Virus record (IMG/VR): IMGVR_UViG_3300025645_000083
Location: 1-58,834 of that record
Length of the DNA stretch: 58,834 nt
Direction: 5' to 3' (one strand)
Source: a virus
Shown: in pieces, positions 26,101 to 48,000 of the stretch
Numbering within the stretch: the stretch's first letter is position 1
How the letters are laid out: every line of letters starts with the position of its first letter
Translations under genes and position numbers: made by a program
The notes under the pieces: model-generated
What the model saw: the letters and a program-made list of their open reading frames with translations, nothing else
What the model was told of the DNA's origin: nothing
Database searches by the model: none

Positions 26101-27266
26101 ACAGATACCAGCCTAGATACGAAGAGTATCAAAGCTATAACAGAGTTTATTCTCAGCAACCTTCATTAGTTAAGAGTTCAGAGACTGGATTTAAATCTAA
26201 AAAGATACAGGAGTTTGACACAAGACTAATGGCGTCAAAAGAAAAAATACCTGGAGAGAGTGTAGATTCTTGGACAGATTTCTTACAAAATGAAACTATG
26301 GACCTAGATGGTCAATATGGCCCAATAAACGCCGTAGTAAATGCAAATGATGAGATATATTGTTTACAGGATTCAGGTGTTGCGCATATATCAGTAAACC
26401 CTAGAGTTCAAACCTCAGGAGCTGATGGAGTTGCGATAGAGCTTGGTGTTGGTGGTATACTTCATGATTATCAATATGTAACAACTAAATCCGGATGTTT
26501 AAATAAATGGGGCGTAGTTGCTACACAAACAGGATTCTATTACATAGATATCCTTAATAAAGGGATCATACAGTTTAATGGACAAATTAAAGGCTTATCT
26601 GATCAAGAAGGGTTTCATGCTGAGTTCAACAACTCAATGATATACAATGACCTTGTGTTAGACAATGCTGTAAACTCTTTTGGAGTTGCAACAGGATACA
26701 ATAGTGTAAATAATGATGTTTACTTTTCTATGAAAATGTCAACAGGAAGCTTTACAATAGCATACAACGAAGCTACTGGCAGTTTTGTAAGCTATTATGA
26801 TTATATTCCAGCCTGGTATATAAATAAGGGGGCTCGAATGATTACATCAAATCCTGCTAATACACAAATATGGGAGCACTTCCAAGGCTCTAAGAATCAC
26901 TTTTATGGTGTACATTATCCTTCTACAATAGAATTTAATGTTTCTCCACAAGGAGAAAGAGACGTTGTGTTTAATAATGCTTCTTATAAGATGGAAATGA
27001 TTAATAGTGCTGGATCTGACCAACCTAATACTGGCCTTACTAAAGTAAGAGTGTACAATGACTATCAGGATAGTGGTGAAATAGCACTTGCTCTTAGAGA
27101 CAACATGTTTAAGAAATTCAGATCTTGGAAGGTTAACTTGCCAAGAAATGCTGGATCAAGAGATAGAATAAGAAACCCTTGGAGTTTTATTGAATTTACA
27201 TTTGATAACACCTCAGGCAACAGTATGGTCTTGCATGACATGACTATTCATTACACAGAGTATTAA
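23187..27266 (+). CDS. Tail 'muzzle'/stabilisation protein of crAss-like type
   Basis: This 1,359-residue protein has no membrane segments and mixed beta-rich content. The N-terminus reads GYKGMSKDLAKSKQSDKYFD, then AKNIRILATDQQ and TNEHGNSQVF, the usual opening of the large tail-barrel protein of crAss phages and of podovirus stabilisation proteins. A beta-propeller-like middle has phrases such as GVAHISVNPRVQTSG and GVATGYNSVNNDVYFSM. The C-terminus has RDRIRNPWSFIEFTFDNTSG and ends HDMTIHYTEY. In the known crAss virion this protein forms the outer barrel that closes the tail tip. Size and position directly after the adaptor genes agree. Confidence 0.75.
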   Translation: MIKQQLLGYKGMSKDLAKSKQSDKYFDAKNIRILATDQQSSFSVTNEHGNSQVFAIPTPVFNITDTSIDYTVGTTAKSLAYKTNTSVIPRCDLEANFYGAAGPVETSGTQVIIGVKELRDSAIIVTTDSSGFDCFWELTNVNSGLFDLELLYMNDLGLNKTNLVQVEYNYENSIIQKIYFVDGKNQLRTMNIRQSIAVGDSKNLIDVPSTAIDTVSTFDLSQAVVDSVVSGGGHTAGMVQYAYGLYILNGSQTTISPLSELVSLDKGIGLGGGDVNENVGRAVIVNVPDIDQTFTHIRIYAIKYTSYNEEPEASLIADKEIDNFSTFTYYDDGSRVSSISLAAFVFLGSDPIIPKHIATKDNRLYPINIKENTFDFELDTRCYGHNSFGHMSVWENIYLNTSNNLSGNILPINGPSIDYTLVRERHDSINRDYDDYKYQSDGTTLGAEGKYFKVEVDQSTLTDSEALDKQFLKDREIYRIGIQLYNRRGQKSEPSWMCDLKIPDGNLSGNYNKLRVTLKADFYVWLNTSSNFDTPDDIPTGYKVLRADRTITDKTILTQGIINPMVANIQHTTKHTNRSERKTDVNTSETDKMPSVIRTFQTNVPFVKCKDYHETAWKDSNDSTFSDLGRGRDREGFKGAASSDWRAQTFQHNRLLQMFSPEILFTDISIDSSYELEIVGLMEEDYSANWSTETNPTSGVHGQEAKFINGFTSDSPGVTINTIKGNAGYLSDKAFFGPTNDDHNVATHQMYRQFKGDFSVATGTRRYELYGTPEVTEKGSDFTTYNGDTNIRYSNHLKSHLIDDFRDSDNAKDNGGDNAIQILGITSEGAKCVTFMEGPDDNTYDLENRTPIEDMHSASGIAETNGILVAEFAKDNNTIYIGSIYGGMTFEAKSISSYIGIGTYTPIATDSILIQSPGDTFVNTFTFTKIAKQDTEETSQAYNRVCEIVSVKLESSIDLRNRNDLSLSEWDNRYQPRYEEYQSYNRVYSQQPSLVKSSETGFKSKKIQEFDTRLMASKEKIPGESVDSWTDFLQNETMDLDGQYGPINAVVNANDEIYCLQDSGVAHISVNPRVQTSGADGVAIELGVGGILHDYQYVTTKSGCLNKWGVVATQTGFYYIDILNKGIIQFNGQIKGLSDQEGFHAEFNNSMIYNDLVLDNAVNSFGVATGYNSVNNDVYFSMKMSTGSFTIAYNEATGSFVSYYDYIPAWYINKGARMITSNPANTQIWEHFQGSKNHFYGVHYPSTIEFNVSPQGERDVVFNNASYKMEMINSAGSDQPNTGLTKVRVYNDYQDSGEIALALRDNMFKKFRSWKVNLPRNAGSRDRIRNPWSFIEFTFDNTSGNSMVLHDMTIHYTEY

Positions 27267-27321: not shown

Positions 27322-28005
27322 ATGAGAAAGATTAAAGCGTGTATAAATTGGTTTGTTGGGTTCTTTTTTTCTGGAGCATTAGGCTTATTAACTGAGTGGT
27401 TAATGTTCCCAATAGCCTGGTTATTCAAGGGGTACGGTAAGAAGTCACCTTTCTGGATATGGATGGATGACTCAAGATTTAATGATGGAACATATAATGG
27501 TTTCATGCCTGATTACTCATCGTATTTAATTCTTAATGGGTCAGAAGATGAAGAAACCTTTCTAATTGCTTACAAATGGCACTTAAGAAATTCTGTTTGG
27601 AACTTAAAAAGTCTACTTAAACCAACTATGCTTCCTTTTAAAACGGACGGAAACAATAATATAATTATAATTGAGACCATAATAGACGAGTTATATACTT
27701 ATAATGATAATTGGATACCACAAGATGGTAAGTGGGAATCTATTGCAGGATTGAAATACATCCCAATAGACCCTAATCAAGACAAGTGGCAAGTTAATCA
27801 AGGAGATGAGATCTCAATTGAAACATCTATACTAGGTACCGGATTCATTTGGTATGAGGTTCTAGGTGATTTGTCATTTAAATACTCTCAATGCATAGAA
27901 GTTAACTATCTATTCTGGAAAGGATATAGAACAATACAATTAGGAACCAGTCAATCTGGATTCAGATTCACAATAAAGCATCAGGCTATTAAACCCTGGA
28001 AATAA
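27322..28005 (+). CDS. DUF7338-like membrane-anchored phage protein
   Basis: ATG 27,322 is preferred; an upstream TTG at 27,286 is part of the promoter. The 227-residue product has a short basic start and one or two membrane helices (FVGFFFSGALGLLTEWLMFP, IAWLF). A soluble domain follows, containing PFWIWMDDSRFNDGTYNGFM, then AYKWHLRNSVWNLKSLL and a late GFIWYEVLGDLSFKYSQC. This order of membrane start, WxWxDD, then RNxxWN is shared by a phage family that I recall as DUF7338. The biochemical role is unknown. The stop overlaps the next start (TAATG). Confidence 0.6.
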   Translation: MRKIKACINWFVGFFFSGALGLLTEWLMFPIAWLFKGYGKKSPFWIWMDDSRFNDGTYNGFMPDYSSYLILNGSEDEETFLIAYKWHLRNSVWNLKSLLKPTMLPFKTDGNNNIIIIETIIDELYTYNDNWIPQDGKWESIAGLKYIPIDPNQDKWQVNQGDEISIETSILGTGFIWYEVLGDLSFKYSQCIEVNYLFWKGYRTIQLGTSQSGFRFTIKHQAIKPWK

Positions 28006-29897
28006 TGTCAGACAAGAAAGATAAAGATAAAGGATTTGATAGAGAGGCATTTAAACGTGCTATTGCTCATGTGGAGTCTAGTGGTGGAAAGTACTTAAGT
28101 AATCCAACTAGCTCTGCTGCCGGTAGATATCACTTCTTATATAGATATATAAAAAATACTCCTATACTAAAGGGTGTAACTATACGTGAATTTATAAATA
28201 GACCCGAGCTTCAAGAGAAGATTATGGATATGGCCATAGACGGTACATTACCTGGATACCCTAGTTATAGTGGATATGCGCAAGAATTAAAGTCTAAGTT
28301 TAATTTAGACATGGATCTTCATGAGATTGCAGCTCTTACTCATTTCCTAGGTAAAGGTGGTGCAAAGAAGTACTTGTCTAATCCATCAGGATTTGTCGTA
28401 CCTGGAAAGAATGCTAGTGTACAACAATATATTACTAAGTTTAATAAAGCTTTTGGGCCCAAAGCCCCTGGAAATAAAAATGTAATTAAAAAGATTTCAC
28501 CTGAAGAGGCAGGTCATAATGTAAAAGTACAAGATAAGACAGCTGTTAAGCAACCTAAGGAGAGTAAAATAATTAGAACTGATACATTTCAAGCAGGAAG
28601 TGACGAGTATATAGAATACTTGAATAGTCAAGGCGTAAGCAAAGAAGCACCAGAAGTTTCTGAAGAGGGTGAAAAACCTGGTCCCACTGTCCAACCTGAA
28701 ACAGCTGAGCCAACTATAACAGATGAGCCAATAAATGAAGAGGCTGAATCAATTGCTAGATTAATTCCAAATGAGCCTAAAAGGATGGCTCCTGTCTCTG
28801 GTGAACTAGCTGGCAAACCAATGGAGGATCAGCTTGGATTCATGAATACACTTGCAATGGGTGGATTCGCTGGTCTTAATGGAGAAAAAGAAATTATACC
28901 AATAGAGAATGGTGGTACACACGAGCAGAATCCTTACGGAGGAGTTCCTATGGGAACAGGGTCCAATGGTAAAATGAATACTGTTGAAGAAGGTGAAGTA
29001 AAGTTCGGAGACTATATATTCTCGAATAGACTTGCTTTAGGTGGATTTATGAAAAGTGTAGAAGATGCAGATCCTAACGTATTTGCTACTGGTGGTGATT
29101 TAACAGATCCAAAAGAACCAGTTGGTAATCCTATTACTGACCCAATATTTGGACCAGGTAAGGAACTTAAGTTTACTAAGTCTGAAATGAAGCCAGTTGG
29201 ATTAGGATTAAAGAAAGTATCAGAAGAATTCACTGTACCGGATGTGAGAGAAGATTTCATGGATAAGAATTATGTATCAACAGGACCTCAAGATACTGTA
29301 AACTTCCAGAGCGCAGTGCAAGATGAAGGAGGTATGGAGTTCTTAAATAGATACAATGATCCTAAGACTAGAAAGCTTATGATGGAGCAAACTGGTCTTA
29401 GTAGTAATGATATAGATAACATGATACTACGTGGTTTATCTCCTGAAAAAGTAATAGGTGGTAATGAACCAGACTCTAAAGCTTCTGTCAACAGAGAGGG
29501 TAACATCATCAATGTTGCTGAGAAGTATAACAATGCTCCTGGTGTTGAAACACACGAAAGAGTTCACTCTTCTATGTTTGACGCCGCGCAAGGTGAAAAC
29601 TTGCTTGATGTATTAGGAAGCCCTTTTCAACAAGAAGGTAAAAATACATTTAATAAATTTAAGAGTTATATGAAGCTTCCACACGAAGCTTACGGTAACT
29701 TCTCAGAATTCAGAGAAAAGATTGGTCTTAAGCCAGGTGAACAAATCACTGAAAAAGAATTAAAGAAAAGAGTAAAAGCAAAAGGTCTTGATGATGAGAA
29801 CTTTTACAAGGTATTCAATGATAAAAATATAACTAAAGCATTAAACACAATAGCTTCAACAGGTGGTCAATCTGATGATGAATATAGATTAGCATAA
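28005..29897 (+). CDS. Ejection protein: lysozyme-like domain plus zincin-like domain
   Basis: This 630-residue, three-part protein starts with a lysozyme/transglycosylase-like fold at about 8-155, with catalytic-type E24 in AHVESSGGKYLSNPTSSAAG and RYHFLYRYI. Residues 165-260 are an acidic Pro/Glu-rich linker. Residues 275-345 carry GGTHEQNPYGGVPMGTGSNG and VEEGEVKFGDYIFSNRLALG, a module that recurs in internal proteins of Bacteroidota phages. The C-terminal part has H517-ERV-H521, an HExxH zinc-peptidase motif, with a helix HEAYGNFSEFREKIGL about 40 residues later that could supply the third ligand. It probably cuts peptidoglycan during DNA entry and may cleave a partner protein. Confidence 0.7.
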   Translation: MSDKKDKDKGFDREAFKRAIAHVESSGGKYLSNPTSSAAGRYHFLYRYIKNTPILKGVTIREFINRPELQEKIMDMAIDGTLPGYPSYSGYAQELKSKFNLDMDLHEIAALTHFLGKGGAKKYLSNPSGFVVPGKNASVQQYITKFNKAFGPKAPGNKNVIKKISPEEAGHNVKVQDKTAVKQPKESKIIRTDTFQAGSDEYIEYLNSQGVSKEAPEVSEEGEKPGPTVQPETAEPTITDEPINEEAESIARLIPNEPKRMAPVSGELAGKPMEDQLGFMNTLAMGGFAGLNGEKEIIPIENGGTHEQNPYGGVPMGTGSNGKMNTVEEGEVKFGDYIFSNRLALGGFMKSVEDADPNVFATGGDLTDPKEPVGNPITDPIFGPGKELKFTKSEMKPVGLGLKKVSEEFTVPDVREDFMDKNYVSTGPQDTVNFQSAVQDEGGMEFLNRYNDPKTRKLMMEQTGLSSNDIDNMILRGLSPEKVIGGNEPDSKASVNREGNIINVAEKYNNAPGVETHERVHSSMFDAAQGENLLDVLGSPFQQEGKNTFNKFKSYMKLPHEAYGNFSEFREKIGLKPGEQITEKELKKRVKAKGLDDENFYKVFNDKNITKALNTIASTGGQSDDEYRLA

Positions 29898-31666: not shown

Positions 31667-33955
31667 ATGGCAAATAGATTTAGTAACATAACAACAGCAG
31701 GATTTAAAGGTCTTTCTCTAGATGAGATAATGGCAGTGCCTTTAGCTAAACAAGCTAGGCAAGATGCTTCATTGGCTGCAACTGATGAGCTAGAGGCTCT
31801 TGAGACAAAAAGACTTGAAGGTGATGCAGGTGTTGTTGATGCAGAATTAGAAAGAATCAGAAAGGAATCTGAGCAGATATCCAAAGATTTGATGGATCGT
31901 GGAGTAGACAGAGGTTTGTCAAATAAGCTTCGTAAATTGAGATCATCTCAAAAGAAATCTTTCGGTGCTTCTGGCGTTGTAGGTCAAGCTAAAGCTAATT
32001 ACACTTCTGCACAGAAATATATAAATGATCTTGCCACTAAGAAAATATCACAAGCAGGTTGGTCACCACAAGAGGCAAAAGTATGGGCTACAAAGCAAGT
32101 AAGTGATTTTGGTAGTTCTTTTGATGAGTTAGGTAATTTTAAACAGTTTTCAGGAACTGGCCTATCTACTAAAGTTGGTACTAATGATTGGATTAACAAA
32201 AATTTAAAGCTTGTACAGGCAGATGCCTCGCAAGATGCAATGAAATATACAGGTAACTTAGATCAGTTTACACAGGCTTATGCTTCTGGTATAATAAAAG
32301 AAAGAGATTTCAATAAGATTATGTCTTCCTTAACCACTATGGCTTCTAATGATCCTGATTTACAGGCCTCATTGAAACAACAACAATTCTTTGACCCTAA
32401 TGCAGGTGATGCTAGAAATATAGGTAAGTGGGAAGTTAGATATAGAGCTGACGGAACTAAGAAAGATGTATTTATTCCAGGTAATCAATTTGGTAGACAA
32501 CTATTTGGAGCCGCTGCAGGTGGGCAATCTAGAGAGCAAAGTTTAAAATATCACTTTAATACTGATACAGCAGCTAAAGAGTTACACGAAAGAGGACTTG
32601 ATGCTAGAGAAGCTGCTGATCTGGTTAGAGCTGCTAATGGTGTTCTTACCACAGTTACACCTGATAATATTGATGAAATTAAAGAAAATACAGGATTGGC
32701 CCTTAATGAGCTTGAGAGACAGACATCAGAAAATAATGCATTTTGGGGAACTGATGAACAAATGCTTGACCCTAACTTTGATAAAGCCAAGAAAGATGAA
32801 TTTGAAGCTAGAAGAAAGTCTAATCCTGTTGCTTTTGAACAAGCTAAAAAAGAACTTAATGATTCTAAAGTAAAGTATCATAAATTAAACAACCTTATTA
32901 ATAGAGTTGAAACTAAAGCGTTAGAAGGTTTTACAGATGAAGAAAAGAAAGAATACGAATTTGCTGAACAAATAAGTGAGCTTAGAACTCAAGATGAAGC
33001 TACTAAAGTTGACTACTTAGAAAAAGAGCTTATTAAGCTTGGGGTTAATCCTGATGATTTAGATATAACTGGAGAAGGGAGAGTATTAAATAATAAAACT
33101 GGTAATTATAATATTGTTCCGGTAAATAAATCTGATGAGTTACTTAGGCATTATTTAGATAAAAAGAATATAACTAACAGATTTGTTGGAAATGAATTAG
33201 ATCCTAGAGGGGCTTGGGAATCATTTGATGATATTAAAAGTAGAGCTAATGATCTCGTAAGAAAGCATTTAGAGTCTAGTCAGAACTTATACTCTGAGTC
33301 ATATACAGAATTCAGTGCTCTTAATAATGGTAAGTACTCAAGTAAGATTGGTGGATTGAATGAAGTATTGAGTGATGGATTTAAGGGATCAGGTTATTCA
33401 GAAGCTTATTCAGGTAAAGATATGTTCTCTTACTTGTCTGAGACTTATCCACCGGATCCAAGTACTGGTGAAGCTAAAGTTGATTATGATGTTAGGGTAA
33501 CTGATGGACATGATGAAAAAGGATATCCTATTGAGCACTTAGTTGTTAAGGATAAGAATGGATCTGTAATAGAGGTTAAAACTATAACAAGAGGAGATCT
33601 TGGTAAATCAACACAACTTAGTGCTGGAAAAGAACTAGCTGTTTCTAGTGACCCAGGATTAGCTGCTAAAGGCAGAAAGATGATTGCCAGTGCAGAATAC
33701 ATGCCTAAGATTAAAGCTTCTGAAATAAGAAGTGGCAATATTGAAGGAACAGTGCAAGGTAAGAATATAAAAATAAAAGGAGTTGAAACTCCAATTTCTT
33801 GGGTTAAGGCTCAAGTTGGTTCCAGAGATGTCTGGAGAATAAAAGTTGGAGAATTCCAATCAAGAGAGTTGTTTGGAGAGGCAGATATGGCTACGTATTT
33901 GTATGAAGAATTAGTAAAAGACTTAAAGAAACAAAATGGCGGAAACACAGAATAA
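31667..33955 (+). CDS. Internal virion/cargo protein
   Basis: This 762-residue, highly helical protein is rich in Lys, Glu, Ala and Asp with no membrane segment. The first 110 residues are coiled-coil-like (ELEALETKRLEGDAGVVDAE, then ERIRKESEQISKDLMDRGVD). A mid region holds RNIGKWEVRYRADGTKKDVF, and a beta part near 600-740 holds VDYDVRVTDGHDEKGYPIEH and KVGEFQSRELFGEADMATYL. It overlaps the next gene by 20 bases. Its place between the ejection proteins and the virion RNA polymerase points to a cargo protein packaged in the head and ejected with DNA. Confidence 0.55.
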   Translation: MANRFSNITTAGFKGLSLDEIMAVPLAKQARQDASLAATDELEALETKRLEGDAGVVDAELERIRKESEQISKDLMDRGVDRGLSNKLRKLRSSQKKSFGASGVVGQAKANYTSAQKYINDLATKKISQAGWSPQEAKVWATKQVSDFGSSFDELGNFKQFSGTGLSTKVGTNDWINKNLKLVQADASQDAMKYTGNLDQFTQAYASGIIKERDFNKIMSSLTTMASNDPDLQASLKQQQFFDPNAGDARNIGKWEVRYRADGTKKDVFIPGNQFGRQLFGAAAGGQSREQSLKYHFNTDTAAKELHERGLDAREAADLVRAANGVLTTVTPDNIDEIKENTGLALNELERQTSENNAFWGTDEQMLDPNFDKAKKDEFEARRKSNPVAFEQAKKELNDSKVKYHKLNNLINRVETKALEGFTDEEKKEYEFAEQISELRTQDEATKVDYLEKELIKLGVNPDDLDITGEGRVLNNKTGNYNIVPVNKSDELLRHYLDKKNITNRFVGNELDPRGAWESFDDIKSRANDLVRKHLESSQNLYSESYTEFSALNNGKYSSKIGGLNEVLSDGFKGSGYSEAYSGKDMFSYLSETYPPDPSTGEAKVDYDVRVTDGHDEKGYPIEHLVVKDKNGSVIEVKTITRGDLGKSTQLSAGKELAVSSDPGLAAKGRKMIASAEYMPKIKASEIRSGNIEGTVQGKNIKIKGVETPISWVKAQVGSRDVWRIKVGEFQSRELFGEADMATYLYEELVKDLKKQNGGNTE

Positions 33956-36900
33956 TCAAGATTTTGCTGGCACACCAGATGCTATTGTAGTGGAGAATGA
34001 ATTCACTGAATTAGACAAGACAGAGCCTGTAAAAGACACTGCTGACATATCTATTGTTGATACTGATCCAGTCGAGGTTGAGAAAACTGATCCTAAAGAT
34101 GATGAGATTTCAATTGTAGACGACGGTCCTAGTATCATGGAGGATAACAGGTACGAAGGTTTAGATGTAGAGGATTACACTGATTATCTTGGTAGTACTA
34201 TATTTATGCCTACTGGTGGCGTTGAAGAATTAAATAGACGTCGTGGTGAGTTACAATCAGGATGGCAACAAGCTGGTAATATGATTGGTCAAGCTGTTGT
34301 TGGTGAGATAATTGGTGGTACTGTTGAAGGATTAGGTTACTTACTTGACTTAGGCAGTGTTATGGATTACATGACTGGTAACGAGACTGAGTGGGGAAAC
34401 TTTATGACAGATGCTGGTAAAGGGTTAAGAACATGGGGACAAGACGCTATGGCTATTCATCAAAAAGCACCTGGTAAGTTCGATCCTTCTGATTCAGGAT
34501 GGTGGTTCAGTAACGGAGTATCTGTTGCTAGTACATTAAGCATGCTTATACCTTCTATGGCTGCAACTAAAGCTTTAGGATTTCTAGGTAAGGGAGCTTC
34601 AAAGCTTGGTGGAAAATTTTCTCGCGTACTAGATGTTGCTGAAAACATGGGTAAAAAGTCTACATGGATGACAGAGGGTATATCCCAAGCTGTTGTATCT
34701 AGACACATAGAAAACTCTATGGAAGCATCCGGTACATTTGAATCTAAACGTGAAGAGTTATTAAATAAAATAGATAAAGAAACAGGCTTACCTTTCACAG
34801 AAGAGAAAGCTACTCAAATAGCATCAACAGCTGCGTCTGATAACTATAATAAAGGTTGGGCCATGTTATTACAAGATATTCCTCAATATCTAGCACTTGG
34901 TAAGATATTCAATCCTCACACTAGTAGGATGGAGAATGCTTTGTCTAAAGCATCTAGTAGAGGTCTTGGAGTTAAAATGAAACCTTGGATGCAAAAAGTT
35001 TCAGGTGGAGTAGGTACTTTCGTTTCAGAAGGTGCTGAAGAATCTTATCAATACTTAATTGCTGAGAATGCCAAAGCTATGGCTGATCTTAATGCTGGGA
35101 TTATTACAAGGGAAAAGTATGACGAAATAATGGAAGATGCCATGGGCTCAGATGAAATGAAAACATCTGCATTCTTTGGTGGTCTTGGTGGTAACTTATT
35201 TCATTTTGCAGGTAAAGGTTTGAGTGAACTTAAAAAGGGAAAGAAAAAAAGAACCTTTGAAAAAGAATATGAGAAAACATATGCTACGACTCTAAATGAT
35301 AGAGCTCGTAACTTTATGTCTATGCAACAAAAATTATCAGATGCTGATAATAACAACAATCTTGAAGCAAGAGAGATGGTATTGGATGAGATGATGTTAA
35401 TGATGACTACTGATTCATTACATCGCGGTAAATTCGATCAACATATTGAAGCTTTAGAAGGTATTGCAAGCATGACTAAAGAAGAGGCTGCTGCTTTAAA
35501 AGAACAAGGAGGTAGTGATTTCAACCTAGAGTTAGCTAAGAAAAATATACCATCTGTTATTAAAAAGTCTGAAGAGATGAGGATGGATTATTTAAAATTC
35601 TCTAATAAGTATGATGCTAACATTGCGGCTAAAATGGCCCAAAACAATTATAGAACAAAAAGATTTGTAGAGAACTCTGCCAAGATGGATGAAAAGATTC
35701 AGAAGGTTACTTATGGAGTTCCTAATGCTAGTGCTATATCGACTACTCAAATGGAAAAGATTGAGGGTCTTATGAAGGTTAAGGCTTTGACTCAAATGAA
35801 TGAGACATTTAAGAAACAACTTGAACAAGAAGGTGTTAGTGAGTTAAGAAAACCACATATTGAGAAATTAATAAAAGACAATGAGAAGCGTATTGCTAAG
35901 ATGACGCTTGACTATCAGGCTATCAAAGGTGATGACCCACGAGATGCTGAACAAAAAAGAAAAGATGCTAGACTTGCTCAAGGCTTCGATGAAGACGTTA
36001 CTGCTGAACTAACAGAGGCTTACATGATTAAGGAGCGTAACAACGCAGAGATATCACTTAATCAATCAGAGAATGGAGATATTCGTAAAGAGTCTTATAG
36101 AAAAGGTCTTAAAAAGCAAGAGCTAACTCATAGAGTTAATACTCCACTTGAAACTGAAGAGCAAGGACAAGAACTTCAGAAAGAAATAGAGGAGTCTGAT
36201 TTTTTAACTAAAGATGAGAAGATTAAGAATGCAGCTGTTGTTAATGAAAACATAGAAGAGCTTGCTAATGAAGAAGCTGTTGCAAGAGAGTATGCTAATG
36301 ACGATGCCAGAGAGGCTGAAAGATTAGCTGAAGAAGCTGCTAGATCTGCTAATACAACAACTGTAAGTAACGCTAACAAAGCTAGTGTTGCAGATAATAT
36401 TGAAGATGAGCATGCAGAAGACTCAACAAATGTAACTAAGACTACTAAGTCTCAAGAGAAAGGAAAGGATAGAGCTATTAATACGGATAAAGTTAGTAGT
36501 AATATCAAGGTTCCTTTATACGCTAACTTAAATGGACCAGGCTGGAAAGACTGGGTATTTAATGGTAAAGATAAAACAGGAGCTAAAGATGGTAAGCCAG
36601 TATTGCTTGACTATGTTGTTGGAACTCCTGGTGGAATACATTCTAAACTAGGACAACAAGCTATTGAGATATTCAATAAAGCCAAGAAGAATCCTAAGAT
36701 AAAATTAACAGCTGAAGAGAAAGATATTTTATTTAATCATCTTCCTATTAAGATACAACTTACTGATGATATATGGTCACATATACCTGCTTATAGTAAG
36801 ACAAATGCATTTTATAAAACTAATGAACTTCCTAAAAGAGAGAATATCATTAGACAAATGTTCTTGGGTAATACTCAAACACAAGTTACTCATCAATTTG

Positions 36901-39068
36901 GTGGTAATTTAAATGTTCAGGAAATTAAAGAAGAGAATGGCGCTATACCTGAAAACAATGTAATGCAATTTCCATTTATTAATGGAAGTATGGGTAAGGT
37001 TGACTTAATGGTTACAAATGAGCACGGCACTTTAGTTAGAGCTAGTGACAAGTCTGATCATCCTGACTTTGAAGGATTACAAATAGATGTAATAGGTGTT
37101 CAAGATGATAATACAAACCCGGTTCCTTATAAAGGCGGAGTGTTTTTAAACATTCCTAAGGCTAATGGTGATCCTTTTCCATTGAAACTTAATCTTAGAA
37201 AGCCTAATATAGCAGAGTCTACTTTTGTAGCAGATATATTGATAGCTATTATGCTTAAAAAGATTGGAAAAGAAGCATTATTAAGTAGTGATGCTGATTT
37301 ATTCAAAACATTTAAAGAAGATCATCCTAATGAATTTGCTGTACTAGGTAAAGATGCTAAAGTTATGGATGTAGCTAAGCTATTTGTTCATATGACATCT
37401 GAAACTGCAGGTAAAGCCACACATTTACATTTAAGTGGTGAATGGATTAGATATGGTTTAGACCCTGATACTGAAGGTGGTTTTAAAGGTATTGTTACAC
37501 CTGATAATGTTGGTGATAATAGAGAAGCTTTAATAGGCTTTATAATGAATGAGAAGAGACGTCAGCTGAATCTTAATCAATGGAACCATGGTAGTTATGG
37601 AGCTAAGTACAGAGAAATGATGCTTAACACTGTTATATCTACTGATGCTGTTGTTGGGTCTGAAAATACTACTTTCTCAGAGAATGAAACTATTGGTCGT
37701 GAAAATGAACTAGGAGCATTCAAGTCTGATATTATGTTCAAGGTACCTGACGGAACTCCTGAGGCAACAAAGGTTGTGCCTAAGAACCCAACAGCTGTTA
37801 ATAAGAAAGTTTCCGAAAGAGAAGCTCTATCTAACAAGGCTGGTGTAGTTAATGAAAGAGAAAAAGGCTTTGCCGGTGTATTCTTTGATAAACAAAGAAA
37901 TAGAATTCCTGTATACGGAAAGAATGAAGCACATGTTAAAGAACTTATTAAAGCTAGATATGATGCAGAGAGATTAGATGCTCCTGCTCAGAAAGCTGCA
38001 ACTGTCATTAAAGAAGTTCCCGATAGTGAAACTGATGAGAGCTTATATGAGAGAGCTAAGAAAATAGTCATTGATGCCGCTAGTGCTAGTGCATCTCTAA
38101 TTCAGAGAAAACTACAAATAGGATACGAGCAAGCTGGTAGAATAATGGATCTTCTTGAAAAAAGAGGTATTGTTTCTAAGTTTGATGGGGCTAAAGGTAG
38201 AACAGTAGTTGGTAATTTAGATGTGGCAAATGATGCAAGAGATTCTGAGTTAGATAAATTTAAAAAAGCTAAAGAAGATAGAGCTAAAGTTGAAATAGAT
38301 AAAATAGAAGCTGAAAGAAAAGCTGAGTTAAAACAATATCCTTACTATATAATTGTAAAGGATAGTGATGCAAGTATGCCGAATTCAAAGCATTATAGCT
38401 TGATGAGTACTTCTGACAATCATAGACCAGATACAACTCCAACTTATAGTTCATTAGAAGCTGGTAATTTCTCGTATGAACCAAAATTTTCTCCTTATCT
38501 AAAAAATAAAGAAGAATTTAATAAAGCAATTAGTTCTAAAACAATTAAAAAAATAAATGAAATCAATACTAAGTATGATGCTAAAATAGCTGCTTTAGAA
38601 CCAACACAACAAACTAGTGGGGTTGTTAAAGAGTCTCCTGAATATGAAGGATTTGATGAATCTTTTGATGGATTCGCTGCAGAAAGAGCTAAAAGTAATG
38701 AACCAATATCAAATGATATCTGGAAGAAGTTTGTAGACAATGGCACCGTATCTAAAATGCAGTTAAATAAGATTGCTAATAAAATTATGTCGAATGATTT
38801 GCTTTCTACCAGAGAAAAGGCTATATTTACAGACAAGACTGCTGAGGTTAATAAAATACTAGTTGATCTTAAAGCAAAAGATGAAGTAATAGCTAGAAAC
38901 AAGATGGCAGAAAGAGAGATGAAGATTAAGCAAACAAATATTGAGTTTGAGTCTGCTAATGAAGCTAAACAAGCTGAAGAAATAAGTAAAGAAAGAAAAA
39001 TTAAAGAAGAAGATCCTAATAAAGACGAAGGTTTCACTGAACAAGGTGAGTGGGATTGTATATTATAA
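33936..39068 (+). CDS. Giant internal virion protein with FtsK-gamma-like winged helix
   Basis: This 1,710-residue protein begins with an acidic Asp/Glu/Val N-terminus (1-65). A Gly/Ala-rich amphipathic region (about 110-245, ALGFLGKGASKLGGKF) includes VGTFVSEGAEESYQYLIAEN near 365. A long helical coiled-coil zone spans about 430-850. A folded domain at about 860-1130 has YANLNGPGWKDWVFNGKD and GGVFLNIPKANGDPFPLKLN, which recurs beside the polymerase in crAss phages as I recall it. Residues 1367-1427 read ESLYERAKKIVIDAASASAS then LIQRKLQIGYEQAGRIMDLL, closely matching the DNA-binding gamma domain of FtsK. The C-terminus is Lys/Glu-rich. It is probably packaged and ejected with DNA and polymerase. 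It starts inside the preceding gene. Confidence 0.7.
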   Translation: MAETQNNQDFAGTPDAIVVENEFTELDKTEPVKDTADISIVDTDPVEVEKTDPKDDEISIVDDGPSIMEDNRYEGLDVEDYTDYLGSTIFMPTGGVEELNRRRGELQSGWQQAGNMIGQAVVGEIIGGTVEGLGYLLDLGSVMDYMTGNETEWGNFMTDAGKGLRTWGQDAMAIHQKAPGKFDPSDSGWWFSNGVSVASTLSMLIPSMAATKALGFLGKGASKLGGKFSRVLDVAENMGKKSTWMTEGISQAVVSRHIENSMEASGTFESKREELLNKIDKETGLPFTEEKATQIASTAASDNYNKGWAMLLQDIPQYLALGKIFNPHTSRMENALSKASSRGLGVKMKPWMQKVSGGVGTFVSEGAEESYQYLIAENAKAMADLNAGIITREKYDEIMEDAMGSDEMKTSAFFGGLGGNLFHFAGKGLSELKKGKKKRTFEKEYEKTYATTLNDRARNFMSMQQKLSDADNNNNLEAREMVLDEMMLMMTTDSLHRGKFDQHIEALEGIASMTKEEAAALKEQGGSDFNLELAKKNIPSVIKKSEEMRMDYLKFSNKYDANIAAKMAQNNYRTKRFVENSAKMDEKIQKVTYGVPNASAISTTQMEKIEGLMKVKALTQMNETFKKQLEQEGVSELRKPHIEKLIKDNEKRIAKMTLDYQAIKGDDPRDAEQKRKDARLAQGFDEDVTAELTEAYMIKERNNAEISLNQSENGDIRKESYRKGLKKQELTHRVNTPLETEEQGQELQKEIEESDFLTKDEKIKNAAVVNENIEELANEEAVAREYANDDAREAERLAEEAARSANTTTVSNANKASVADNIEDEHAEDSTNVTKTTKSQEKGKDRAINTDKVSSNIKVPLYANLNGPGWKDWVFNGKDKTGAKDGKPVLLDYVVGTPGGIHSKLGQQAIEIFNKAKKNPKIKLTAEEKDILFNHLPIKIQLTDDIWSHIPAYSKTNAFYKTNELPKRENIIRQMFLGNTQTQVTHQFGGNLNVQEIKEENGAIPENNVMQFPFINGSMGKVDLMVTNEHGTLVRASDKSDHPDFEGLQIDVIGVQDDNTNPVPYKGGVFLNIPKANGDPFPLKLNLRKPNIAESTFVADILIAIMLKKIGKEALLSSDADLFKTFKEDHPNEFAVLGKDAKVMDVAKLFVHMTSETAGKATHLHLSGEWIRYGLDPDTEGGFKGIVTPDNVGDNREALIGFIMNEKRRQLNLNQWNHGSYGAKYREMMLNTVISTDAVVGSENTTFSENETIGRENELGAFKSDIMFKVPDGTPEATKVVPKNPTAVNKKVSEREALSNKAGVVNEREKGFAGVFFDKQRNRIPVYGKNEAHVKELIKARYDAERLDAPAQKAATVIKEVPDSETDESLYERAKKIVIDAASASASLIQRKLQIGYEQAGRIMDLLEKRGIVSKFDGAKGRTVVGNLDVANDARDSELDKFKKAKEDRAKVEIDKIEAERKAELKQYPYYIIVKDSDASMPNSKHYSLMSTSDNHRPDTTPTYSSLEAGNFSYEPKFSPYLKNKEEFNKAISSKTIKKINEINTKYDAKIAALEPTQQTSGVVKESPEYEGFDESFDGFAAERAKSNEPISNDIWKKFVDNGTVSKMQLNKIANKIMSNDLLSTREKAIFTDKTAEVNKILVDLKAKDEVIARNKMAEREMKIKQTNIEFESANEAKQAEEISKERKIKEEDPNKDEGFTEQGEWDCIL

Positions 39069-39093: not shown

Positions 39094-42000
39094 ATGGGTA
39101 ATAAATCGAATTGTATAGGCGCCATGAAATTTGAAGAGAAGTTGGTTGATGTTCTAGGTACACTAGAGTTAGCTAATGCAGAGGCACGTAAAATTGCATC
39201 TGACGAATTCAAAGAAGTATTTGGTGACTGGGAAGGAAACAAAGAAGCAAACTGGGTTGATAAGTACGGTGCTTTAAGACAGGATGACAATGGTTATCCT
39301 AAATTATACAAGTCTGGTAATGAACACTACTACAAACTTGCAGACGGGAAGAAACATTTTTTAAATAAAATTAAGTTTCCTGAAATAGATCCTGATGATG
39401 TTTACGAAATTACTAATCAACTTAAGTATGAATTATTCTCAACTAAAGAAGGGTTTGATTTCAATAACATTGATGAGATTAAGGGTCTTAAAATAGGTGA
39501 ATCAATACAATCTAGTATTGACTCTTACAGGTCAGAGAATGCAGGAGATCCTGACGCAATACAACGGGCAGATCTAGTCCAAAAATACAAAGAAGATTTT
39601 ATAATTGAAGTAAGAACTCAGATAGAAGACATGGGTCTTACATCTAGCAAGCGTATTAAAGCAGGAGCTAGAAAAGATCAGATTCAAGATCTTACTGATG
39701 AGCAGGGTAATCCTGAAAGTGAAATATCTGAAGAGGATAAATCTACTGGTATGAACTTTGCTGAAAACTTCACAAAGAACTCTAAAGATAGCGCATCTGT
39801 AAATGTAAAATTATTATTATCTACCGTATTAGATTCAGAAGTTGTTGTTAGAAAGAATGCTGACGGCAGTGTATATATAAATAATAATGGCAAGACTGAA
39901 GCTAAACTTGATACTGTTTCAGGTAGGTTTCTAGGTAAGCCTCAATTTGTTGAATTCGATGATGTATGGACTACATTGGAGCCTATGTTATCTGATTTAG
40001 TAAACTTTAACTTAGGTGGAGATGTTCAAGACGTATTTGACCTTATGGTTGAGAAAATTGATGGATTAAAATTAGTTAAGCCATGGACTAAGGGATTAGC
40101 TGATAGGTTAAGAGAGTTAAACACTTCTGATAAGATTGGTGAGAGAAACAAAATCACTGAATTCTTTCAAGCGTTTTCAAAAGCAAGCCTTACATATTAT
40201 GTAACTGAAGTTGATGGTAGAAATATTAAAGTAATCAACGCTTCTGCTACTAACTCTAGAACTAGTAAGCTTAAAGGTGAATGGGGACGTGGATTTAGAA
40301 AAAAGTTCTTAACCAATAAGGGTAAGATGAAAAAGGCTCTTGATGTAGATCAAATTTCAGATCTAATTACCGAGTCTAAGAATAAGTTTATTAAACAAGC
40401 TGGTACTAGAGGTACTGCTGCTTCTCAAATAAAAAGTATTAGTGAGAATCTACCTATATTAATGCAAGCTATGAACGCTCTTGGTATTAATGTTAATAGC
40501 CTTGACATGCGTAATTTTATACTTCAAGTTGCTGATCCTAAAAAGAGATATGGAGAAGTAAAAGCATTGTATGAAGGAATGGAGGAAACTATGAAGCATA
40601 TAAAAGATGAGAAATCTCCTTTTGTAACTACTGTTGGTGAATTCAAAAATCCATTTGACTTTCAGAAAGTATTAAGTAGAGTTGCTGGTGCTCAAGCATT
40701 AAGTGCTATACAATTATCTGAGAATACAATAGTAGGTAATGAAGGTAAGACATATTGGACCTATTCTTCTTTAAGCTATTTACATAACAAAATAAATGCC
40801 TGGAAACAGCAAGCTGGAGATGATAGTACAATTGATATCAAAGAACTAGCTGGTCAAACATATAACAAAAACTCTAGATGGTTGAAGTTCTTATTAGCTT
40901 CTGACATAGTTAATGACAGTGAAAGAGAAGCAAAATCATTAGAAAGAATAAAATCTGTTGAAATAAGTCTATCTAGTTCTATTAAATCTAAAAATAAGAA
41001 TGATGGTGTTGACAATACCAAGATAACAATTGCTGATGCTATTAATGATAGTATGGTAAAGATTCTTGGTAAGAAAGGTACATTACAAAAATCTATCTTT
41101 CCTACTATTGTTCCAGCGGACAAGTCCCGTAAGATGGATATTGGTGGATTTGACATGCATCAAACTGGGATAGTATATACTAAAGGGAAGGGTGTGAGCA
41201 TTGATAATGCTACTATTGAAATCTTTGTAGACTATTTTGAAGATGAGTATAACAGAATGTCTGAGGCAGCTGATGAGATAGCTAACTTACCTGATTCAGA
41301 AAAGATAGAGCACTATCATACTAAAAGCATGAATGCGCTTAAGTCTCAACTATTTCCAGAATTTAATCCTTCTGAAGCTGAGCCTAAACTTAAGGCCATC
41401 TTATATGATAAGAATGGACATCCTAAGAAGTCTACAATGACTGGTTTAACTAGTTCTCAAAAAGAAGCATTAAAGCCATTTGTTGAACAAGCTATTAAAG
41501 ACAGGATGAAAGAAACTCTTGTTGAATTAAGAACAAATAGAATCATAGAAGTAAATCCTAAAGCAAAAGGCGAATTGAAACCACTTACTATTGATAACAC
41601 CTTGATGGAAAGTTATGGGACACAAGAATCTCCTATTCACACTATGGTAGGTGACTATGTTGTAAATGGATTAATATCTACAATTGAATATACTAAGTTA
41701 TTTTCAGGTGACCAAGCTTATTACAAGAATCAAAGTGATTTAATTAAGCGTGTACCTGCTACATATACTGATGGACTACAATTAAGACTTAGTAAGAATG
41801 ATCACAAGTACTTTAACCAGGCTACTGTTAATGGAGTCGAGGTTGCTTCTTCTTATATTAAGGAGATTCAAGATTCACTTACTGACAAAAGCTTAATAGA
41901 GGCATATAAGAACATTAACACTACTGATGCTCAAGCATGGATAACTCCTCATAGATGGAAGTTTCTTAAAGAGAGATTAGGTAAATGGGGTGCTCAGCAT

Positions 42001-45000
42001 GAAAAGGTATTTGATAAGATGATGGCAGGTAAAGAGTTAGAGCCTAAGGAGCTTAAACTTGCTGCACAACCACTTAAGGGTGTATACTTTGAAATTAATG
42101 AGGGACGTCCCGTATATTTGAAATATTCTCAAGCTGTACTAGTTCCTAGTTTAGTCAAAAATACTCCAATGCAGAAGATGTATGATAAGATGACTATTGA
42201 TCCTGCAACTAAGAAGCCTTATGAGAATAAGAAAGATGAACTTCATGAGGTTATTACTCGAGATGGTGTAAAAGTTGGAGCAAAGGGTATTACAGATATA
42301 CATAAGCCAGGTACACTGGAATTAATGGATGAATTCGAACTTAATTCAACACCTTTACTTAATGGTGGATGGAAGTTACAACAAGATTTACCTACTAAAC
42401 TTATACATGATACTTTAACTGGATCTCAAATTCAGAAAAATATATTAGCTGGTATTGATTTAACATCCGGTGATGCTAATTATGAGTTGAATGGTGAACC
42501 TAAGACTGGTGGAGAAATTATGGAGTTAATTCATGATACTATTGGTTCTTTAGTTAGCGAAGGCAGAGCCTCACTGCAAGAAAGGTTTGGAATAGGAGAA
42601 GATAATAAGATTACTGACATGACTGGAGTCTATGATGCGCTAATTGATGAATTTAAATCAAGAGGTGGAGATGAAAATATCATCTCAGCATTAGAGAAGG
42701 AAATGAGATTTGATGCAATACCTCAATTATCAGGTAGAGTGCAGAGCATCTTTATGTCTATTTTTAACAAAGAACTTGTTAAAGTTAAAACCAATGGCGG
42801 TAGTTTTATTCAGGTATCTCCATTTGGACTTGAGTCTGTACAAGAAATTGTAAAAGATTCGTCCGGTAAAGGACCAGCTAAAGTACTTAGATCAGGTATA
42901 AAAATAGTTAGTGATAACTACGATGGTAAAGGTTTAAAACCACCACGTATAGAAAATGGTAAAGTATTGCCAGGACAAGCTATGTTGCCTTACAGTGCAA
43001 TAAGAGCTACAATTGATAAGCATAATAGATCATTAGAGAAAGGTGATCTTAACAAGATTGAGGATCACCCAGACTTTATCAAGCCATGGAACATGACGGC
43101 TGAGAAGCTTAAAGAAATCTTAGACCCTAGCGCTCTACAAATGGTTTCATATAGGATACCTAATCAAGGTATGAGTTCGAATGATGCTTTAGAAATTGTA
43201 GGTATACTTCCTCCAGAGCTTGGAGATAGTATAATTGCTTACGATGCGGTGCCAGGTAAGACAGGTTCAGATTTTGATATTGATAAGATGTATGTTATGA
43301 CTCATCACCTTGAGGTGAAAGATGGTAAAATACAGAAAATACCAAGTAATACTGATTCTAAGAAAGGTAAACAGAACATGTTAGTAGATTTATATTCTAG
43401 TGTGTTGTTGTCACCTCATACCTATGATGCAATGATGACTTCAATTGACGCAGGTTTCTTGAAAGATGACATGCAGGATCTTTTTCCTGCACCAGAAATG
43501 AAGTCTCTTCAGTTTATGAGCCCTATACAACAAATTAAAACTAAGTTTCAATACTTAAGTGGTAAGTTTGGTGTAGCTATGATTGCTAATCAATTAGTTG
43601 ATCACGCTTCTAATCAGAGTTTAAATATAAGTCTTCAAGGTTATTTAGGCATTGGACATAAAGATTCTAAAGGTCATACTAAATTTGATAGAACACACGA
43701 TACAAATGGTAAGAATAGTGTTAGTGATGTGTTATCTGCATTCTTGAATGCATATGTTGATATAGCTAAAGATCCTTATATATCTAGAGGTAATCATAAT
43801 ATAACTACATCCAATGTAACATCTATGCTTATACGCGCAGGTGCCCCTATATCATGGGTTAATAGACTTATAGGACAGCCTATACTTAAAGATCTTGTTG
43901 AGATAATCAACATGTCTGAAGGTAAGACTGCTCAAAGACTAGTATTCCAAAAAGATGGTAAAGGAAAGACTGTTACTCCTTATGAGTATGTAAGATTAAA
44001 GTATAAAGTGAATGAGTCTGAGGCTAACGAGATAGATGTAGCTGGTTTAAGTGAGTCTAAAATGGAGGCTGCTATAAGAAGAACAGGACCATTAACTACT
44101 GAACAGAAAATTGAACAAGGTAAGATATTAGATATATTTGAGTTCTTACAAGATCATTCTAAATCTTTTAGCGCTTCTGTTAACGCGGCAAAAGCTGATA
44201 CCAAAGGTAACGGAGGTGGAGTTGTAGCTAGACAGATTGCTGAGAACAAAGTTAACGAGGTTCTTAATTCTGGAAGAATACTAGGATTTGAAACTAAAGG
44301 ATTCACTGGTAAGCATCTTAATGAAACAATGATGGGTCATTATTACAAACAAGCAGTATTGTGGGTTGGTGATATATTACAAGCTAGTGATTTATTCTTA
44401 GTTGGTAAGAATGAGGTATTAAGTGCTTTCAATGAGATATCTATAACGCTTGGAAAAGGAGTATTAAAAGACCCAGAGCTTGGAAGAGTTTTAGAAGCTT
44501 CTTTTAGAAGTTATTCTATGTCAGGATTATCTGTGTTTAAGAACAACAATGCTGATCATGATTACTTATTTAAACAATTACCTGAAAAGATACATGCTTT
44601 AAAAGAGGCTGGTTCTACTAATTTTCTAGTTAAGGAATTAAGAATAGACTCTTCTGGAGGATATGAATTCTTAGGTATAGATTCTAGAGCTGCAACTAAG
44701 AGTTTTAATAATAAAATGTACAGAGCATGGTCTAGGTTACTTAATTCTTCTGATCCAAGTGAGAAAGAACTTGGAATAGATTTGATAAGATACGCTTACT
44801 CCCAGTCAGGGTTTAACAATAATCTTAATCAATTCTTTGCTCACATACCTCATAACTTTTTTGCGGAGAATGGTATTAATAGAGAGATTGATGAGATGTT
44901 TAGAACTGCTGACAAGATTGTTGGAGGTGAGGATTTTCAAGACCAAATGATAAGACATCAGTGGGATAACAAGACTATTGGGTACAAGCTAGTTCCTGAA

Positions 45001-48000
45001 TTAAGATTTGATAGAGTTAAAGGATTTGGAGGAACATATAGTAATGGAACAGGATTCATAAGTGATGAATCTAAATCATCAATAGCTCTTGAAGAAGACA
45101 AAGATACTGGAATAAAATTATTTCCTAAATTTGTTAAAGTAGATATTAGTGAAAGAGATGCTTCAATGCCAAACTATGCCTTGTTTATCTTTAGAGGAGA
45201 AAAAGAAGGGAATCCTATATACACTCGTACTCATAAGTTAGGACATAAGTCTGGTAAAGGAAGTATCTTTGAATATAATGAAAAGAACACTCCTGCTAAG
45301 TCTGTAATAGAAGGAAACAATATACCTGTTGCTATTAATAAAGAGATTACGAAAGTGATGTCTGAACTTAGAAGTGATCCTTTATTTTGGGAGGGCTCAG
45401 CTACTATCACTAAAGATACAGCTCCTTCTAAGAATGTTCGTGAAATATCTACAATGGTATTAGATCCTAATGATATAACTGCATTTAAAAATTATCTTTC
45501 AAAGTCTGGAGGAAAGTTTCCTAAAACATTCTTTACTAATATGACTAAGTTTGCTGAAATTAAAGATAGCAAAACTGAAGGTAAAGGTAAAATGCTAGAT
45601 AGTCATTTATGGATGATTAATAAGAACGAGAGATATGACATGATTGACCAGATTACTGGTGAGTTCGTAGTAGTTGATGTTGATTTACAAACTGGATTAC
45701 AATACACAGAAGTTAAACTTGATGACTTAAGTGATGGAGTTCAAGAGGAAAGAATGCTATCTAGTAGCAATGATTACCTTCTTGAAGAGCTTAGTGTGTT
45801 TAATGCTAAGATTGCTCATATGCAAAAAAGCATGAATGTAGAAGTTATCATGGATCCTACAATCCCTACTTCAAGGGTATTATCCGCTAATGACCCAAGA
45901 ACTATTGCTGCAGGAAAACCTGTTATACTTATTAATCCAAAAGCTGTATTCAAGACGACTGCAATACATGAGTTTGCTCACGTTTTCATTGATGCATTTC
46001 CAGGTGGACTTAAAAATAAAAGGCTTCAGAGAGCTTTAAAAGACCTTGAAGGAACTGCTTTATATGACGAAGTTAAGGAAGCGTATCCTGAATTAGATAA
46101 TGAAATGTTCCAGAAAGAACTTTTAGCTACTGCAATTGGTAGAGAGGGTGCTGATATATGGGATAGTAAAGAAAAAGAGAGTATGTGGACAGCATTCAAG
46201 GATTGGTTCTTTGACTTCTTACGCAGAACTTTTAACTTGAAACAAAGTGAGGTTACAAGTCTTACTAAAGAGTTATTGAGTAATACTGTTAAGTCTGATT
46301 TATTAGATAATTTATCTAATTTTGCTCAGCAAGAAAAGAACTTTGGACAGAAAAAGAAAGATCCAGAAGCGGTAATTTTAGATAATACATATGAGCAAAT
46401 CATATCGTCTATATCTAACTTAAGACAAGCTATTGAGCCTCGTACTAAGAATGAAATTGCTGCTGAAGAGCTCAAAAAAGCTGGTCTAGATAAAGGTGAG
46501 AAAACTAAATTTCAAGAAGTTAAAGACTTAGATAAGAAATTGACTGAAGAGATGGATAAGCTTAATAATACAGCTAACGCTAGAGCTATGATTAGGTATG
46601 TTGACTTCTCTGAGAAGAGTGTCAATCAATATAAAGCTCTTGTTAGTAGATTAGCTGAAAGAGGTAAACTTACACCTGAGGAAATAAAAAACATCAAGTT
46701 CTTTACTTCTGTATTTACTATGATTCCGGATGTTAAGCAATTAATGCTTGAACAGTATAATAAAGGATATCTTAAGAATGATAATGGTCAGAAGAAAAAG
46801 AGAATGGACGTATTGGATAAGATTATTGCTGATTATGATACTTTAAATCAAGAGATGCTAGGTGTTTCTAGAAGAATCTATGCTAAAACAATGGTAGATA
46901 ATTCTAATGAACATGTTACAGTATGGAGAACTAAGTATGAAAAAGAATATGCTGAGTTAGAAGCTAAGAATTCTAAGCCTGATGAAAGTATTCATGTTTG
47001 GGTTAATGAAAAGATGATAGCTAATGCTGATACAATACAAGCAGAAGCATTCGAATTCTATGAAGAACAAGCTAAAAAGAGTTTGTCTGATATACACGCG
47101 TCAACAGGTTGGTTAGTTTCTGAAAAGAATATTGCTAATGCTGAGATTCAAACAGTATCTGCAATGATAGATGCTGCAGATTTCGAAGTTGATAGATGGG
47201 TCCAGTCTCAAGCTAAATTAGTTGAAGAAGCTTATGAGAATTTCTCTAAAGCATACCCTAGTTCAATTGGAAGCGAAGAGAGATATAGAAAATTTATTGA
47301 TCAAACTGATGAGGGCTCGTATTTAATATCTGAATATAACCCAGGTTTCCTATCTAAATACTATGAGGCTAACTCGTGGATGAACAGGTCTGTATATGAG
47401 GAGAAATTTAAAGGAATAGAGATATCAGAAGATGGCTCATACACATTGAATGGAGAAAAGAAAAGCCTTCATTTACCAAGTAATGGATTAAAGGTAGAAG
47501 GTACTCATGTGTTTTATACCGAAGCTGGAATAGTTTACTCAATGACCTTGGAAGAGGCCATAGGAAAGACTGAGCGTGCTAACTGGATTGAAGCTAATAC
47601 TGATTCTAAAAAGACTACATATGGTCTAGATATTAAACCTAAAAAGAAACTTTGGTCTAATAAGGCTTATGATGCTTTATCTGTAAAAGATAGAGAACAT
47701 CTTAAGGCTATGAAGAAGATGATAGTTGATGCTAATGTATTGACTGGAGGTAAGCAGAGTTTAATAGAGAAAGCAGGCGTGGTAGACTTTTATAGATTAC
47801 CAGGTATAACTAGATCTAGTCAAGCTCGAGCTATTGCAGGTGATTTAAAATCTCTTGTTAGTGACAGTGTGACTGACATGTTTAAGAAGAAAGAAGATGA
47901 ATTCGAATTAGAAGATACAGGAACTAAAGCTGAAAATAAAGGAAAAGATTCTATTAAAAGAATGGCTGACTTAACTAATAAGCAGAAGTTTGATGTGCCT

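Follow-up and report, generated by a model that had tools for sequence, protein, structure and literature searches.

Genomic context of the predicted cargo protein

The window, by which we mean the whole stretch of DNA that was analysed (58.8 kb, IMG/VR record IMGVR_UViG_3300025645_000083), is a genome fragment of a crAss-like phage near Steigviridae, whose relatives reach ~98 kb. The hosts of crAss-like phages are Bacteroidota. The open reading frame at the centre of this work starts with ATG, has no internal stops and encodes 1710 amino acids. The features discussed below all lie on the plus strand; residue numbers of the inner features are those of the 1710-residue protein.

13209..14708, +, major capsid protein, ~51% identity to Steigviridae (crAss001, cr106_1) by sequence comparison
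23187..27266, +, muzzle protein (crAss001 gp44; phi14:2 gp082, 41.6% identity), by blastp
28005..29897, +, cargo protein 1 homologue (crAss_CARG1 PF25725, 2.5e-18)
33936..39068, +, homologue of phi14:2 gp078 / p-crAssphage gp45, predicted cargo ejected with the RNA polymerase (ORF, blastp)
38031..38558, +, variable stretch, residues 1366-1541, with gamma in its first part; not alignable to ~70%-identical relatives
38034..38210, +, FtsK_gamma winged-helix domain, residues 1367-1425 (PF09397, PDB phmmer, AlphaFold2/Foldseek)
38094..38153, +, gamma helices 2-3, SLIQRKLQIGYEQAGRIMDL, residues 1387-1406, holding the counterparts of E. coli Gln1288-Glu1303 by alignment
38217..38333, +, long charged helix after gamma, residues 1428-1466, including KAKEDRAKVEIDKIEAERKAEL; predicted hairpin arm (AlphaFold2 H94-132)
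38508..38597, +, second predicted helical arm with the INTKYDAKIAAL motif, residues 1525-1554 (AlphaFold2 H191-220)
39094..49671, +, virion RNA polymerase ORF, 3525 aa, equivalent to phi14:2 gp077 + gp076 (blastp, DFDID motif)

Blastp matched the 1710-residue protein to gp078 of Cellulophaga phage phi14:2 (1e-16) and to gp45 of p-crAssphage, annotated as 'RNAP associated protein' (7e-28). The genes between 23187 and 49671 are colinear with phi14:2 gp082-gp076 (muzzle, cargo 1, gp080, gp079, gp078, gp077+gp076), and these phi14:2 orthologues, gp078 included, are annotated as structural from MS/MS. Both homology and position directly before the RNA polymerase gene place the protein among the RNAP-associated cargo. 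The polymerase ORF carries the catalytic DFDID at residue 1393 (43270-43284), and in it the counterparts of gp077 and gp076 are fused into one frame. Virions of crAss001 contain the RNAP-associated proteins gp47, gp49 and gp50 by mass spectrometry, at an estimated 6 or so copies of each per virion, and these proteins are modelled as ejected (PMC10172136). From the orthologues we infer that the window protein would likewise be packaged and ejected; its predicted placement beside the polymerase in an ejected virion protein, already proposed in the initial annotation, is supported by orthology and synteny. A zincin protease role was considered and rejected, the HExxH of the Intestiviridae homologues being absent from the window protein.

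The protein contains an FtsK gamma domain

Domains of the FtsK gamma type let bacteria sort their chromosomes. One had been annotated at 38034-38216 (residues ~1367-1427), and it is real. When the whole protein was scanned with Pfam-A, FtsK_gamma (PF09397) matched residues 1367-1425 at an E-value of 1.1e-20; the score, 73.5 bits, exceeds the gathering threshold of 30.6 bits. The match covers positions 3-61 of the 63 in the profile and is the only Pfam family above cut-off in the protein; a six-frame search of the record found gamma at 38034-38210 and nowhere else. Six gamma-containing phage families in PHROGs also matched (best 2.9e-14), as did, with phmmer, PDB chains of P. aeruginosa and E. 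coli FtsK gamma (4e-9 to 1e-6, with 2j5o and 2ve8/2ve9 at ~4e-9). We modelled residues 1335-1566 with AlphaFold2 and obtained a pLDDT of 88-97 for the gamma domain, a fold to be expected from an input alignment of 31 gamma domains and not independent evidence. Superposition of the model gave the same answer: in Foldseek the top rank went to 2ve9, a gamma bound to KOPS (rmsd 1.0 A over 57 columns), and the best matches, 2ve9/2ve8, had rmsd values of 0.8-1.1 A over 57 columns and TM(target) of 0.80-0.89. For the identity of the domain, the sequence evidence is decisive by itself.

The domain is an insert at a hypervariable site

The proteins of two relatives (L003:7944-12656 and L004:7965-13661) are ~70% identical to the window protein up to residue ~1365 and ~50% identical over the last ~170-190 residues. 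For residues 1366-1541 we found nothing clearly alignable in either, and the gamma domain is absent from both, in the protein and anywhere in their records. Compared with each other, L003 and L004 show 95% identity before the site and 85% after it. What they carry at the site is unrelated, 46 residues in L003 (1385-1430) and 370 in L004 (1388-1757); no Pfam or PHROG family above cut-off was found in these alternative modules, and the L004 module, modelled with AlphaFold2 with no alignment supplied, reached a mean pLDDT of 47. In phi14:2 gp078 the corresponding interval holds about 60 residues. Judged by these alignments, the gamma domain is an insert specific to this lineage, at a site whose hypervariability belongs, as far as seen, to this clade. 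We considered and rejected the idea that all Steigviridae have such a site, since orthologues of crAss001 gp47 can be aligned over their full length even at 38% identity.

A second IMG/VR contig (L002, 51,708 bases) is 100% identical to the window across 21,130 bases and has different ends, so the insertion is not an assembly error of one contig; the two contigs still represent a single phage lineage. None of 6 other Crassvirales records scanned contains the gamma domain, and in a tblastn search of 50,697 phage records, which gave a gamma match in 364 (some of them short contigs resembling bacterial FtsK with its motor), no crAss organism was among the matches listed. An alignment-based scan of viral contigs with the window protein brought up nothing but these relatives and one further record. 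Since close relatives do without the domain, its role would be accessory, not core to ejection or transcription. The GC and GC3 of the domain resemble those of the remainder of the gene.

Beyond gamma, two helices are predicted in the variable stretch, each with a motif that recurs: one of the IEAERKAEL / IERRRQEEL type and one of the INTKYDAKIAAL / INAKYDAELAAL type. The relatives carry IDAQKAEIERRRQEEL, a motif comparable to the KAKEDRAKVEIDKIEAERKAEL of the post-gamma helix, and the arm with the INTKYDAKIAAL motif is common to L003, L004 and phi14:2 gp078. Both motifs are duplicated in L004, and a tblastn search for the linker motif elsewhere in phages gave no match. The cargo protein 1 homologue of L004 (L004:1315-3996) has an insertion of ~230 residues (residues ~367-601), absent from L003 and the window, in which no recognised domain was found. 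The polymerase ORF of L003 (L003:12670-20361) has an insertion of ~133 residues (residues ~1306-1440) with respect to the window, near window residue 1262.

Recognition surface and origin of the domain

In E. coli FtsK, Arg1300, Glu1303 and Glu1306 contribute to the reading of KOPS, and the triple alanine mutant was constructed as a KOPS-blind FtsK (PMC2680272). KOPS is bound by three gammas, a single gamma surface serves both KOPS and XerD, and Asn1296 forms a hydrogen bond with Glu119 of XerD (PMC5052618). We compared the window domain, in E. coli numbering, with 70 distinct Bacteroidota FtsK gammas fetched by profile, which is the fairer comparison, and with 64 other FtsK fetched with peptide patterns from the same region, in which conservation is partly built in. 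The KOPS-reading residues are all kept in the window (Arg1300, Asp1303, Glu1306), with Asp for Glu at 1303, as in 70/70 Bacteroidota gammas. Also retained are Gln1288, Arg1289, Ile1293 and Gly1294, and the window has Gly1299, found in 39/70 Bacteroidota and in 0/64 of the pattern-fetched set. Three positions depart from this picture. Arg1292 is Gln, a residue seen in only 2/70 Bacteroidota. Asn1296 is replaced by Glu (Glu1398 of the window protein), which occurs at 1296 in no compared set. Arg1297, present in 70/70 Bacteroidota and in 61/64 of the partly pre-selected other FtsK, is replaced by Gln (Gln1399). A nearly invariant Arg1297 next to a small or polar 1296, a common and non-defining feature of gamma domains, is therefore lacking in the window, and the resulting pair (GYEQ) occurs in 0 of ~149 other distinct gammas.

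The loss of recognition-helix residues, named in the initial annotation as grounds to drop the assignment, is partial: the three KOPS-reading residues stand, while two neighbouring ones are changed. The net charge across residues 1366-1427 is +3. Read from sequence, the surface argues for DNA contact being kept, with altered affinity or preference, and argues against XerD activation. Binding of double-stranded DNA by the insert is what its fold, net charge and retained residues would predict.

The sequence nearest to the window domain is a Bacteroidota FtsK gamma (56% identity), and the domain was likely captured from a Bacteroidota host lineage. In a FastTree analysis of 59 columns the node of the window had a support of 0.25 and a branch of 0.81; as this tree is unresolved, the proposed origin rests on the nearest sequences and the diagnostic residues only. 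Stand-alone gamma proteins from Asticcacaulis genomes or a viral record (L007:7974-8729, L087:5974-6729, L037:5821-6777) have Ser at 1300, and they share it with the FtsK of their host; a mobile gamma can thus track the residue that its host uses for reading. A Bacteroidota chromosomal protein (L022:5608-6495) combines a leucine-rich-repeat-like N-terminus, an FtsK gamma and a C-terminal TM-like segment, and has no motor.

Search for a motor, KOPS and dif

The Pfam scan found no motor family, RecA-like or other, in the 1710-residue ORF upstream of gamma or elsewhere, and with no motor domain the protein cannot steer translocation as FtsK does. We looked for candidate binding sites within the 58.8-kb window, for a domain known from one lineage. 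There is no excess of GGGNAGGG there (3 copies on the coding strand where 1.85 are expected, 0 on the other where 0.05 are), and the octamer check suggested earlier, run on the same window, found no enriched skewed octamer (best z 2.7 against Markov expectation). The idea that KOPS-like sites direct the pull-in of the genome is not borne out by any of these three results. The best dif-like site in the window has 2 mismatches to a generic dif consensus; this is close to chance, as 2 mismatches were reached in 1/20 shuffles and 3 mismatches in 16/20.

Relation to known gamma domains

The window domain resembles the gamma of FtsK/SpoIIIE (PF09397; 2ve9, 2j5p, 5dcf) in its winged helix, its profile match and its Arg1300, Asp/Glu1303 and Glu1306, and differs from it in being motor-less, in the replacement of Asn1296 and Arg1297, and in lying inside a predicted virion cargo protein. 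Gamma domains in phages are already known. In polyvalent proteins, which are thought to be delivered along with the DNA of a phage or plasmid, Iyer et al. list the FtsK wHTH among the rare DNA-binding domains; crAss phages are not mentioned in their study (PMC5512222). Such proteins (e.g. Cupriavidus WP_029307715) share with ours an FtsK wHTH in a large protein predicted to enter the cell with DNA; however, they combine disparate activities, whereas the window protein shows no other Pfam domain and is a crAss RNAP-associated protein. The small terminases of Sam46 and Sam112 carry a gamma fusion whose DNA-binding site is reported to be highly conserved (PMC8190038). Here too gamma is fused to a phage morphogenesis protein, and the BFVD fold match is close (0.7 A, 57 columns, 44% identity), but a small terminase is a packaging protein. 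Other phage gammas (PHROG 13700 and others, in Gordonia, Mycobacterium, Pseudomonas and Vibrio phages) also lack the translocase motor; unlike the window domain, they are separate proteins of ~100-470 aa, several of them encoded beside RusA, RecT, exonuclease or replication genes, and not virion cargo.

The statement in the initial annotation that no role had been described for such a domain in a virion protein therefore needs narrowing: injected proteins with the FtsK wHTH (PMC5512222) and the Sam46/Sam112 terminases (PMC8190038) precede it. For crAss phage proteins and virion RNAP-associated proteins, we found no gamma domain described in the mainly open-access literature searched.

Possible functions of the insert

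The most economical reading, to which we give about even chances, is that the insert serves as an accessory double-stranded-DNA-binding tether. After the polymerase-associated cargo protein is ejected and refolds, gamma would keep it, and perhaps also the virion polymerase next to it, attached to DNA as infection starts. The profile, PDB and fold matches, the KOPS-reading triad and the colinear cargo context are consistent with this role, and binding to double-stranded DNA was predicted by Iyer et al. for the FtsK wHTH in other injected proteins (PMC5512222). On the other side, Glu1296 and Gln1297 would put negative charge at the DNA/XerD contacts, which may weaken or abolish DNA binding, and FtsK uses three gammas on KOPS, while the window protein gives no apparent sign of oligomerising.

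The main dull alternative is that gamma is a captured module at an insert-tolerant site, functionally neutral or decaying. The site is hypervariable even between relatives that are 95% identical, two well conserved residues of the domain are changed, and it is found in a single lineage; but its frame is open, its hydrophobic core and triad are intact and its base composition matches the rest of the gene, and we consider a mere passenger rather unlikely. More interesting, and unlikely to a slightly greater degree, is sequence-specific recruitment, in which gamma would read an octamer, either host KOPS or a phage site, and either bring the ejected complex to defined DNA or give the virion polymerase a promoter preference. 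The conserved triad agrees with this, as does the Ser1300 that the Asticcacaulis stand-alone gammas share with host FtsK; the window, however, lacks both an enriched octamer and an GGGNAGGG excess, the beginning of the recognition helix is altered, and gamma is missing from close relatives, whose polymerase must be of the same type. We think it improbable, though worth stating, that the site takes swappable payloads, the one here being a captured host domain for reading chromosomes. What is left of its KOPS-type recognition would then position the ejected polymerase complex on selected DNA as infection begins, and relatives would carry other, unrecognised payloads at this site.

An action against the host also has to be weighed. 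The protein could compete with host FtsK or bind XerD, disturbing chromosome dimer resolution and division, given that one gamma surface serves both KOPS and XerD (PMC5052618) and that Gln1288, Arg1289, Ile1293 and Gly1294 are kept. However, Arg1292 is Gln and the partner of XerD Glu119 is now Glu, and the copy number estimated for such cargo in crAss001 is too low for titration of KOPS sites (PMC10172136), which speaks against the interference with host segregation suggested in the initial annotation and makes this reading very improbable. Activation of XerCD, which FtsK gamma brings about at dif, fares no better. By analogy with XafT of TLCphi, which, as cited in PMC9765430, is a phage factor replacing FtsK at XerD, the domain might activate host XerCD, so that phage genomes are circularised or resolved. 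Such a strategy has a precedent in XafT, but the window shows no dif-like site beyond shuffled expectation and the XerD contact residue is altered, and we regard this as the remotest of the readings.

Crassviruses are among the most abundant human gut phages, and to our knowledge little has been described of what their multi-megadalton ejected cargo does apart from transcription. Finding a recognisable domain of the DNA-reading kind in that cargo provides a specific handle on its function, and the adjoining hypervariable site suggests that the lineage changes what it delivers. The reuse of FtsK gamma by phages, in early proteins, a small terminase and polyvalent proteins, now extends to an accessory protein of a virion polymerase.
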